In this document: positions 27,987 to 32,095 of the stretch, in pieces
How positions within the stretch are numbered: the first letter of the stretch is position 1
Layout of the letters: each line of letters starts with the position of its first letter
NCBI GenBank assembly: GCA_015484945.1
Contig: WFUO01000060.1
Coordinates: 1 to 64,000 of the forward strand
Source of the DNA: Gammaproteobacteria bacterium
GTDB taxonomy: Bacteria; Pseudomonadota; Gammaproteobacteria; WFUO01
DNA length: 64,000 nt
Reading direction: 5' to 3'
Translations under genes and position numbers: made by a program
Notes under the pieces: generated by a model
Seen by the model: the letters and a program-made list of their open reading frames with translations, nothing else
Told to the model about the DNA's origin: nothing
The model's database searches: none

Positions 27987-28060
27987 CCGGCGCGGAAAAA
28001 AGTTTAGTGGATCATTCAAGTATTAGAATTCTATAATATATTGAAAACACTGAAAAAATA

Positions 28061-28105
28061 GTAGCTGCATTTTGCAACTATGGTATTATGCAACCATGCA
28101 GCTAC
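28061..28105 (+). promoter_or_regulatory. Long inverted repeat covering the start codon of the sensor kinase gene
   Basis: Perfect 10-bp arms GTAGCTGCAT (28061-28070) and ATGCAGCTAC (28096-28105); inner arms TTGCA (28072-28076) and TGCAA (28089-28093). Confidence 0.75.
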
Positions 28106-30051
28106 GTCAGAAACTTTTTATCGTTCTCAGCCTGATGGCCATGGTGCCACTGCTGTTTCTGCTGTTCGAGGTATTGGGCCGAACCGAACGCGATCTGGAG
28201 AACCGCGCATCGGCGGAGTTGTACAAGACCCTCGACAAGATGGCGCAGGAACTCAACACCCTGATGAACAACCAGAAATCCATCGTTCAGGGGCTTGCCA
28301 AGGTGCCCATCGTGCGCAGTTTCGCCAGCCTGATCGAGACTGGCGGCAGCCAGGAATACGAGAACAAGGCCAATCAGCTTGCTGCCTTCTTTCTGAACTA
28401 CCAGAGCACGGTGCCGAGTATTCAGGCCATCCGCTTTACCGACACGACTGGCAAGACCCTGGTCAAGATCAAGGAAGGGCACCTGGTGCCGCTCAGCAAG
28501 CGTGACGCCAGGGGCAGGGCCTATGTCGAGGATATCGCCTACAAGCCATTCTTCCAGTGGGCGCTGAAGACCCGCGACGGAATCTCGATATCTGACTTCG
28601 AGCGTGGCAAGGTGGCCGGAGAGGTCAACTTCTGTCCGGCCATGGTGCGCTATTCGGTGCCCATCCGCGACGAACTGGATACCCTGCAGGGTGTTCTCAT
28701 CGTCAACATGTGGGGGCGACGAGTGGATCACACGGTTGAGGCAGCGCTGGGTGGTTATCCTGGCAAGGTTTATATTGTCGAGCAAAGCAGTGACAGACAG
28801 CGGGATGGTGTTTATCTGTATCACAAGAACGCTGATTACCGTTTTGGCAACCAGCTCAAGACCGATTACCGTTTTTATCGAATTGCAGGCGCCGGTTTGT
28901 GGGAGCGTATTCGCAAGGGCCCAGACAAGGGCATGGTGGAAGGCGCGGACGGGGCCATGTATTACTACAACAAGTACGCCCCGTACCGGGATCGCGATAC
29001 CCGCTGGGTGTTGATGATCGAGGCCGACCGGTCCACGGTGCTGGCACCGGTGATCAAGCTGCGCAGCTGGATCGGATTCCTGATCGCCGTGATGCTCGTC
29101 ATCAGCCTGCTGATCGCTCGTTGGGTGGCGTCACGATTGGCTATGCCGGTACACGAGTTGGCACAGATCATCACCCGTTATGCCGATGGTGACAAGGCGG
29201 CCAGATACCAGGGTGAGCGTACCGACGAGATTGGTCTGGCCGGCAAGGCCTTCAACTATCTCACACGCAAGCTGGAGATTGCCGAAAAGGAACGCGACAA
29301 GGCCGAGTCGGCGATGCGTCAATCCGAGCGTCTGGCGGCGATTGGCCAGATGGCGGCGGGCATTGGTCACGAGATCAACAATCCACTGATGAACATCATG
29401 TCGCTGACATCGCTGATTCAGCAGTCCCTTCCCAAGGACGACAAACAGCTGCATGAAGACATCGAGGCGATCCAGAATGAGGGTAGGCGTTGTGCGCGCA
29501 TCGTACAGGGTATTCTCAATTTCGCCCGCGAGACGCCACCTGAATATCGTCATTTCGATATGTCACAACTGATCAACGAGACCCTGTTGCTGCTTCGCCA
29601 TCGTTTCGAAACCGCCGGGATCGAGCTGAAGAACGAGTGCCAGGAGAGCCTACCGATGGAGGGTGATACGGGTCAGTTGCAGCAAGTCCTGGTGAATGTA
29701 TTACTGAATGCACTGCAGGCATCGCCATCCGGCAGTACCATACACATCAGCAGCCGTCAGTGTGACCAGTCGGTATGCATCTCGATCAGCGATGAGGGAG
29801 AAGGCGTGCGGGAGGAAGACATCGAGCGTGTGTTCCATCCCTTCTTCTCGACCAAGGCAGAAGGCAAGGGGACCGGACTTGGCCTGTCGGTCAGTTACGG
29901 AATCATCCGCAAGCATGGCGGGACCATCACCTTGCAGAACCGCGAGCAGGGTGGTGTCAAGGTTAGTATCGTCATGCCCTTGCATGAACAGAAACAAAAA
30001 GACAACCACGATAACCAGGAAGAGATCAGAGATGCCGTCAACCAGTCTTAA
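28096..30051 (+). CDS. Sensor histidine kinase: periplasmic Cache-like sensor, HAMP, HisKA, HATPase_c
   Basis: Two TM segments, HAMP-like ITRYADGDKAARYQGERTDEIG, H-box MAAGIGHEINNPLMN, G-box GKGTGLGLSVSYGII. Confidence 0.92.
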   Translation: MQLRQKLFIVLSLMAMVPLLFLLFEVLGRTERDLENRASAELYKTLDKMAQELNTLMNNQKSIVQGLAKVPIVRSFASLIETGGSQEYENKANQLAAFFLNYQSTVPSIQAIRFTDTTGKTLVKIKEGHLVPLSKRDARGRAYVEDIAYKPFFQWALKTRDGISISDFERGKVAGEVNFCPAMVRYSVPIRDELDTLQGVLIVNMWGRRVDHTVEAALGGYPGKVYIVEQSSDRQRDGVYLYHKNADYRFGNQLKTDYRFYRIAGAGLWERIRKGPDKGMVEGADGAMYYYNKYAPYRDRDTRWVLMIEADRSTVLAPVIKLRSWIGFLIAVMLVISLLIARWVASRLAMPVHELAQIITRYADGDKAARYQGERTDEIGLAGKAFNYLTRKLEIAEKERDKAESAMRQSERLAAIGQMAAGIGHEINNPLMNIMSLTSLIQQSLPKDDKQLHEDIEAIQNEGRRCARIVQGILNFARETPPEYRHFDMSQLINETLLLLRHRFETAGIELKNECQESLPMEGDTGQLQQVLVNVLLNALQASPSGSTIHISSRQCDQSVCISISDEGEGVREEDIERVFHPFFSTKAEGKGTGLGLSVSYGIIRKHGGTITLQNREQGGVKVSIVMPLHEQKQKDNHDNQEEIRDAVNQS

Positions 30052-31399
30052 AATGCTTTTCGTCGATGACGATCCGGTGACCTGTTCTGTCATGCGCAGA
30101 AACTGTGACAAGGCAGGCTATGACTGCGAGGTATTCCAATCGCCTGTGGAACTGTTATCCGCATTCGAGAATAACGGGGCGGACTTCATTGTCACCGATT
30201 TGCGCATGCCGGAGCTCAATGGTTTTGAACTATTGAGCCGGATTCGTGAGATCGACCCGGATGTTCCGGTCGTCGTCATGACCGGCTACTCATCGGTCGA
30301 GAACGCGGTCGAGGCGATGAAACTCGGGGCCACGGATTTCATCAAGAAACCGTTCGATTTCGAGGAACTGCGTATCATCGTCCAGCGTACGCTGGATTCG
30401 CGTAAACTGCGTACCGAGAACCAGTTACTGAAAAAACGCTTGGGTCAGGAACGCAATCGTTTCGGCATGATCGGTGACACCCCGGTGATGCGCGAGCTGT
30501 TCAACCGAATCGAAAAGGTCGCCGAGGTCAGCTGCAATATCATCATCATGGGTGAATCCGGCACCGGCAAGGAACTGGTTGCCAAGGCCCTGCACGACTA
30601 CAGCCCACGCAAGGACGCGCCCTTCGTGGTCATAGATTGTGGCGCGCTGACCGAGACCCTGCTCGAGAGTGAGCTGTTCGGTCACGAGAAGGGTGCATTT
30701 ACCGGGGCTACCCAGCGCAAGACCGGTCTGATGGAACAGGCCAGTGGCGGCACCCTGTTTCTTGATGAAATCAGCAATATATCGGATGCCATGCAGATGA
30801 AACTGATGCGCGCCATAGAGGACCAGAAGATCACCCGCGTGGGCAGTACCGTTCCTATACCGATCGATCTGCGCATCATTGCAGCCAGCAACCGTAATCT
30901 GGAAAAAATGGTTCAGGATGGCGAATTCCGGCACGATTTCTACCATCGACTCAATGTCGTTAGTATTCATCTGCCACCATTGCGCGAGCGGCGCGAGGAC
31001 ATCCCGGCATTGATCGAACATTTCGTCGAGATGTTTGCCAAACGCTATGAGCGCAACATACAGGGTTTCGACAACGTTTCCATGCGCAGGCTCTATGATG
31101 CCGATTGGCCGGGCAATATCCGTGAACTGAAAAACACCATTGAGCGCTGCGTGATTCTGGCCGATGGTCCGATACTCAAATGGCCCGACCAGACGACCAC
31201 AAGCGATGACGGTAGCTCGGCGGATTTCATGAGCTTTCCCAGTGACAGTTTTCCTTCACTCGATCAGCTGGAGCAGGAGTACATCAATCATGTACTACGG
31301 CATGCCGATGGCAAGAAAACCCGCGCGGCACAGATCCTGGGAATCGACAAGACCACGTTGTGGCGCAAGTTGCGTCGCTACGAAGAGGAACGAGGCTGA
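30032..31399 (+). CDS. Sigma54-dependent response regulator, NtrC family (REC-AAA+-Fis HTH)
   Basis: Receiver MLFVDDDPVTC, Walker A GESGTGKE, GAFTGA, WPGNIRELKN, C-terminal HTH TRAAQILGIDKTTLWRKL; start 30032 overlaps the kinase end by 20 nt. Confidence 0.95.
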   Translation: MPSTSLKMLFVDDDPVTCSVMRRNCDKAGYDCEVFQSPVELLSAFENNGADFIVTDLRMPELNGFELLSRIREIDPDVPVVVMTGYSSVENAVEAMKLGATDFIKKPFDFEELRIIVQRTLDSRKLRTENQLLKKRLGQERNRFGMIGDTPVMRELFNRIEKVAEVSCNIIIMGESGTGKELVAKALHDYSPRKDAPFVVIDCGALTETLLESELFGHEKGAFTGATQRKTGLMEQASGGTLFLDEISNISDAMQMKLMRAIEDQKITRVGSTVPIPIDLRIIAASNRNLEKMVQDGEFRHDFYHRLNVVSIHLPPLRERREDIPALIEHFVEMFAKRYERNIQGFDNVSMRRLYDADWPGNIRELKNTIERCVILADGPILKWPDQTTTSDDGSSADFMSFPSDSFPSLDQLEQEYINHVLRHADGKKTRAAQILGIDKTTLWRKLRRYEEERG

Positions 31400-31457
31400 T
31401 GGCCGGATATGCACAGACCGGAATTGGCAAAAGGTTGTAATCTACCATCCCGACTTG

Positions 31458-31479
31458 CTGCATATGCTGCAAAATGCAG
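31458..31479 (+). promoter_or_regulatory. Candidate enhancer (UAS) palindrome
   Basis: CTGCAT-N10-ATGCAG; contains TGCAAAATGCAG, the exact reverse complement of CTGCATTTTGCA at 28065-28076. Confidence 0.5.
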
Positions 31480-31568
31480 AACCAGCCAATCGCCCATCAT
31501 CATATCAGCAATAAATGAAATTCTATAATTTATTGTTATTCTTAAAGAAATAGTGATAAAAATAAGCC

Positions 31569-31584
31569 TGGAATAGTACTTGCA
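31569..31584 (+). promoter_or_regulatory. Candidate sigma54 -24/-12 promoter
   Basis: TGGAATAGTACTTGCA with GG and GC separated by 10 nt; a TATAAT at 31591-31596 offers an alternative sigma70 reading. Confidence 0.5.
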
Positions 31585-31633: not shown

Positions 31634-32095
31634 ATGCTTTCCAAGAAGTTACTGTCAGTCGCGGGTGCAGTTGCTCTCAGTGCCACACTGGTTGGCTGCA
31701 ACACCGGTCCCAAGCTGGTCAAGGCCAAGAATGGCTACTATCAGCAGAAGGCTGTCTATCACATCAATGACATCAACCATGCCTATGGCGCACTGCGCAA
31801 CATCAAGAACCACCTGAACGCACTGGGTGACAAGAACGTAAAGATCATCGTAGTCACCCATTCCAAGGGCGCCTTCACGCTGGTTGACGGTTCGCGCGAC
31901 AAGAAGGGTCACACCTTCGAAAGCCAGATTCAGGCACTGGCCAACCGTGGCGTACAATTCGATATCTGCGCCAACACCATCCGTGGCAAGAAGATCGACA
32001 AGAGCAAGATCAACCTCAACGCCAAGGTCGTTCCTTCTGGTGTTGCCGAGCTGGCTCACCTGCAGCAGATGGGTTACGCCTACATCAAGCCCTGA
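31634..32095 (+). CDS. DsrE/DsrF-like (COG1416-type) predicted lipoprotein
   Basis: Signal peptide with lipobox LVGC; C-terminus GVQFDICANTIRGKKI...VPSGVAELAHLQQMGYAYIKP typical of DsrE-like proteins; strong RBS ggaggagg. Confidence 0.85.
   Translation: MLSKKLLSVAGAVALSATLVGCNTGPKLVKAKNGYYQQKAVYHINDINHAYGALRNIKNHLNALGDKNVKIIVVTHSKGAFTLVDGSRDKKGHTFESQIQALANRGVQFDICANTIRGKKIDKSKINLNAKVVPSGVAELAHLQQMGYAYIKP

Follow-up and report, generated by a model that had tools for sequence, protein, structure and literature searches.

The palindrome TGCA-N3-TGCA, found in dozens of sulfur-associated bacteria at both ends of a locus encoding a sensor kinase, a response regulator and a DsrE-family lipoprotein, can be assigned with good confidence to the NtrC-family regulator of the same locus (30032–31399), which would activate the DsrE gene by looped sigma54 activation and repress its own kinase operon. 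The DsrE lipoprotein gene itself is very probably switched on through sigma54 via this site. This gives a precise candidate operator for an apparently undescribed sulfur-linked two-component system, which occurs in many uncultivated Gammaproteobacteria and in the named strain Thiohalophilus thiocyanatoxydans. The most interesting part is the apparent change of the sigma factor around a fixed operator: the set of orthologs is a natural experiment on an enhancer-binding protein leaving sigma54, with the loop, the -12 element and the promoter position changed and the operator constant.

Organisation of the locus and definition of the site

In the window, that is, the whole analysed stretch of 64 kb, nuoL-nuoM-nuoN-DUF2818 are followed by the genes of the sensor kinase, the NtrC-family response regulator and the DsrE-family lipoprotein (Table 1). 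The regulator has the domains of an enhancer-binding protein (bEBP): a receiver, an AAA+ sigma54-interaction domain and a Fis-type HTH, with the GAFTGA motif intact (LFGHEKGAFTGA).

Table 1. Genes and candidate regulatory elements of the locus (window coordinates)
Feature	Position	Strand	Evidence
Sensor histidine kinase gene (dCache-HAMP-HisKA-HATPase)	28096..30051	+	Pfam; ATG start conserved in orthologs
NtrC-family response regulator gene, intact GAFTGA, Fis-type HTH (GIDKTTLWRKLRRY)	30032..31399	+	Pfam PF00072, PF00158, PF02954; motif alignment
DsrE/DsrF-family lipoprotein gene, lipobox LVGC	31634..32095	+	Pfam PF02635, E=3.3e-12; synteny in orthologous loci
TGCAAAATGCA, strong proximal candidate regulator site (enhancer)	31468..31478	.	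TGCA-N3-TGCA in 39/44 intergenic regions
TGTAATCTACC, weak distal candidate site, three helical turns (32 bp) upstream	31436..31446	.	Offset scan
TAATTTATTGTTA, IHF-like site between enhancer and promoter	31526..31538	+	Best IHF-consensus match, fixed distance and orientation in most loci
TGGAATAGTACTTGCA, candidate sigma54 -24/-12 promoter (GG-N10-GC)	31569..31584	+	Consensus match, conserved in 33/44 loci
TGCATTTTGCA, candidate operator in kinase leader, over predicted transcription start	28066..28076	.	39/44 leaders, mostly 27–36 bp before ATG
AATAGT, candidate -10 element of kinase promoter	28057..28062	+	4/6 matches here

The initial annotation described a palindrome CTGCAT-N10-ATGCAG about 90–110 bp before the -24 element, sharing a 12-mer in reverse complement with the kinase leader. 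The stretch CTGCATATGCTGCAAAATGCAG is indeed present at 31458–31479, 90–111 bp from the -24 element (TGG at 31569). The pair is also exact: CTGCATTTTGCA is found at 28065–28076 on the forward strand and its reverse complement at 31468–31479, and an exact copy is found nowhere else in the 64 kb; by estimate, two leaders some 150 bp long would share about 0.003 12-mers by chance. At up to two mismatches the window contains four matches of CTGCATTTTGCA vs 6.7 expected, so that the exact pair alone exceeds the background and the 2-mismatch copies do not.

With the kinase as the query over GTDB genomes, 49 orthologous loci were collected (about 47–62% identity), including those of T. thiocyanatoxydans and a Sulfuriflexus MAG. 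The gene order nuoN-(DUF2818)-kinase-regulator-DsrE is kept in most of them. We compared 44 regulator–DsrE intergenic regions, counting that of the window, and 44 kinase leaders, using dinucleotide shuffles as the background for motif counts. TGCA-N3-TGCA is present in 39 of the 44 intergenic regions (shuffle mean 0.31) and in 39 of the 44 kinase leaders (shuffle mean 0.72), its position being fixed relative to the sigma54 promoter at the DsrE end and to the kinase start at the other end. Hence the conservation in orthologous loci, on which the initial annotation had staked its proposal, holds at each end. In both leader sets, TGCA pairs at spacings 0–2 and 4–12 occur at the background level only, and spacing 3 alone is enriched.

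The invariant part, located here at 31468–31478 and 28066–28076, has three A/T-rich central bases and weakly conserved flanks. The left arm CTGCAT (31458–31463) is not conserved, being peculiar to the source genome, and the longer palindrome was dropped as the conserved unit. The true unit, as predicted from the orthologs, is the 11-bp palindrome TGCA-N3-TGCA.

Several loci deviate. The site is absent at both ends in L039 and L040, which keep a similar recognition helix, and at the kinase end only in L036–L038; in L076 the DsrE-end site has one mismatch, and in L071 GT replaces GC of the -12 element. In L065 and L066 the sites before DsrE are degenerate and no clear sigma54 promoter is seen, with GAFTGA intact; L069, L174 and L177 belong to the same group, although both the TGCA site and the sigma54 promoter occur before DsrE in L178, a member of the family that includes L174 and L177.

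The DsrE end

Across the loci, the sigma54 promoter has the form TGGAAYN5TTGCW. The distance from the centre of the site to the -12 GC is 92–128 bp, mostly 103–109 bp, and 109 bp in the window. A second, degenerate site has a single preferred offset, 31–33 bp upstream, with z = 4.4 at -32 in a scan of 39 loci, and in 35 of these 39 at least six of eight positions match TGYA-N3-TRCA at -33 to -31, although the position partly overlaps the regulator gene, whose conserved end with its stop-codon context may contribute to the signal. Thus, as is typical of bEBP targets, GG-N10-GC (TGGAATAGTACTTGCA) is preceded by a conserved site about 80–150 bp before the start and by spaced dimer sites, the second at -32.

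In most loci the IHF consensus is best matched at 35–37 bp upstream of -24 or, roughly a helical turn farther out, at 44–47 bp; of 31 such best matches, 24 share one orientation. No IHF-like phasing was found in the kinase leaders. An AT-rich stretch common to both leaders, ATTCTATAATWTATTG, was considered as a second regulator site and rejected, as its DsrE-end copy lies in the phased IHF-like position; at the kinase end it shows no phasing.

Read from the sequence, this arrangement is the anatomy of a looping NtrC-type sigma54 enhancer. The position ascribed to such an enhancer in the initial annotation is supported by the site conserved upstream of the sigma54 promoter. We infer the following sequence of events. 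The phosphorylated regulator would be loaded at the strong site and at the weak site 32 bp further upstream, the intervening DNA would be bent by IHF, and the GAFTGA loops would then touch sigma54-RNA polymerase at 31569–31584 and the promoter would be opened. As to the signal, the periplasmic dCache domain probably senses a sulfur compound in reduced form.

The kinase end

In most kinase leaders a TATAAT-like hexamer is situated 1–4 bp upstream of the site (up to 6 bp in two). Since the site directly follows this hexamer, it is expected to cover the start point. Several leaders have a weaker second site, some 19 or 26 bp farther downstream. The description as an enhancer fits the DsrE end only; the kinase-end copy, positioned at the start site, looks like an autoregulatory operator and not like an enhancer. 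Its position suggests that the operon is repressed by its own regulator: when bound over the sigma70 start point, the latter would most likely act as NtrC does at its own operon.

The kinase operator and the start codon are spanned by a perfect 10-bp inverted repeat, GTAGCTGCAT/ATGCAGCTAC, at 28061–28070/28096–28105. An Rfam search of the leader yielded no family match.

Loss of GAFTGA and a possible change of the sigma factor

In the motif alignment, the regulators of seven loci (L048, L052, L053, L056, L059, L063, L075) have GVNDA or NAFSGA in place of GAFTGA and retain the Walker motifs and the HTH. The regulator of L058 has the loop deleted; this locus has no readable promoter and so is not counted among the seven. 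All seven lack GG-N10-GC and keep the TGCA site. The two-by-two table, 7/0 vs 4/33, gives Fisher p = 8.6e-6, a value that ignores kinship among the loci. A single loss of GAFTGA is compatible with 62% of the bootstrap trees, and the joint loss of GAFTGA and the sigma54 promoter should be counted as one or two evolutionary events.

The L053 group features a conserved TTGCAC-N16-TATAGT with the TGCA site centred near -60, and L048 and L052 have a different sigma70 candidate, TTTCAA-N17-TATAAR, both being consensus matches within AT-rich DNA. Traces of the former -24 element are still visible in the GAFTGA-less loci. Loss of rpoN as the cause of GAFTGA loss is ruled out, as sigma54 is still encoded in every GAFTGA-less genome tested.

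GAFTGA would have decayed or been deleted and the -12 element would have decayed as well, with new sigma70 promoters arising beside the unchanged operator. We see about an even chance that, within one orthologous locus, ATP-driven activation of sigma54 promoters has given way to activation with sigma70, possibly on two independent occasions, and that, in addition, a DsrE/Sox sulfur regulon is formed from two paralogous sigma54 systems sharing the 11-bp operator.

The soxY-linked paralog and other candidate sites

The second of these systems is a paralogous kinase–regulator pair that adjoins soxY (Pfam PF13501) in the source genome and in many others. The soxY-linked regulators are 46–57% identical to the locus regulator and have the recognition helix LGINKSTLWRKL. 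In the source genome, the pair adjoins two soxY-like genes at positions 1–9000 of contig C49 (L137). The one at the contig edge is preceded by the same 11-mer, TGCATTTTGCA (L137 329–339), and by TGGCACAGGGCTTGCG; the first soxY-like gene has a further sigma54-like promoter, TGGCATGGCACTTGCG, ahead of it.

Targets across the genome were located by pattern matching alone. TGCA-N3-TGCA occurs at 17 places in the source genome, most of the other copies having G+C-containing centres, unlike the A/T-rich ones of the locus. The sites at sigma54 promoters are those of the DsrE gene, of soxY and of a short non-coding stretch on contig C4. A scan with a single pattern of enhancer plus promoter matched 25 of 369 genomes of the class, the DsrE and soxY loci included; part of the remaining matches is probably due to chance.

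Downstream of TGCATATTGCA on contig C4 (11189–11463; L141:2690–2964, minus strand) come a sigma54 promoter (TGGAACACATTTTGCT) and a non-coding stretch of about 110 nt ending with a G+C-rich hairpin and eight T. This stretch has no Rfam match and no DNA match in 113 relatives, and its folding is unexceptional (z = -1.1). It may encode a small RNA that depends on sigma54 and belongs to the same regulon. Another perfect palindrome of the TGCA-N3-TGCA form, GTGCAATATGCAC (L142:2116–2128, contig C64), is situated just upstream of a relA/spoT-like gene, where no convincing sigma54 promoter is found.

The probable binding protein

The locus regulator is the candidate binder because the sigma54 promoter vanishes together with GAFTGA while the site stays, and because the site recurs, with a sigma54 promoter, beside the paralogous soxY-linked regulator. 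Sequence comparison supports the initial proposal of a site for this regulator, with the site redefined as above. The loci that lack the site but keep a similar recognition helix (L039, L040), or that have degenerate sites and no clear sigma54 promoter with an intact GAFTGA (L065, L066), speak against it, as do those without the kinase-end copy (L036–L038). One genome contains both paralogous regulators, each with this site, so that either or both could bind it. The soxY-linked paralog, a heterodimer or both proteins may be the main binder, with cross-regulation of the DsrE and Sox genes; we consider this possible but clearly the less probable reading. In its favour, soxY has an identical 11-mer in an equivalent sigma54 arrangement, in the source genome and several others, and the DNA-binding regions of the two regulators are 47% identical, with near-identical recognition helices. 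However, the promoter type has changed along with the local regulator in the seven GAFTGA-less loci, and the spacing between the site and the promoter, typically 65–67 bp at soxY vs mostly 84–90 bp in the DsrE system, indicates that the systems are not simply interchangeable.

It is improbable that the site is that of an unrelated global regulator and sits in both leaders by happenstance. Short TGCA palindromes do serve several regulators, and one of the 17 genomic places is that upstream of the relA/spoT-like gene, but the site goes with this regulator subfamily in both paralogous neighbourhoods and in many families, and the centres of most other genomic copies differ from those at the locus. 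That the 12-mers match by coincidence or form a hairpin element in the RNA is hardly credible, since, although the kinase-leader copy lies inside the inverted repeat running into the start codon, that outer repeat is not general among the orthologs, unlike TGCA-N3-TGCA, which is conserved in 39/44 cases at fixed positions at both ends, and Rfam gives no match.

Comparison with known systems

We found no description of the kinase–regulator–DsrE locus in the open-licence literature searched. E. coli NtrC has tandem enhancer sites at glnA/glnALG about 32 bp apart, at -108 and -140, and represses its own sigma70-type promoters. Like it, the locus regulator is a two-component sigma54 activator, and the half-sites have TGCA in common. 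Unlike it, the site is an 11-mer, not a 17-mer, and the kinase type and the target, a sulfur lipoprotein, differ. Since the regulator scores 443.7 bits against the ntrC equivalog model TIGR01818, under the cut-off of 558.6, and its site is unlike the 17-mer NtrC box TGCACCAnnnTGGTGCA (PMC8743547), it can be judged to resemble NtrC in the mode of action, yet not to be NtrC.

The TspS/TspR system and other tspSR-sox-like clusters are likewise sigma54-dependent two-component systems that lie beside sulfur genes and have their sigma54 promoter preceded by an enhancer. The enhancers in related clusters are reportedly diverse. In Acidithiobacillus caldus, the TspR enhancer at sox is TGTCCCAAATGGGACA (PMC6335251), whereas the locus has a different site, its neighbours are nuo and DsrE, and the target is the DsrE lipoprotein gene beside nuo, not sox. 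The soxY-linked paralog, which agrees with TspS/TspR in its neighbourhood only, is probably of this kind.

Finally, NtrC of Rhodobacter capsulatus and Caulobacter lacks GAFTGA and acts at sigma70 promoters (PMC10274813). These proteins, too, are NtrC-family regulators that have lost the loop contacting sigma54. Here, unlike there, the loss occurred inside one orthologous locus, in seven loci plus L058 with its unreadable promoter, the operator being retained and the promoter changed.
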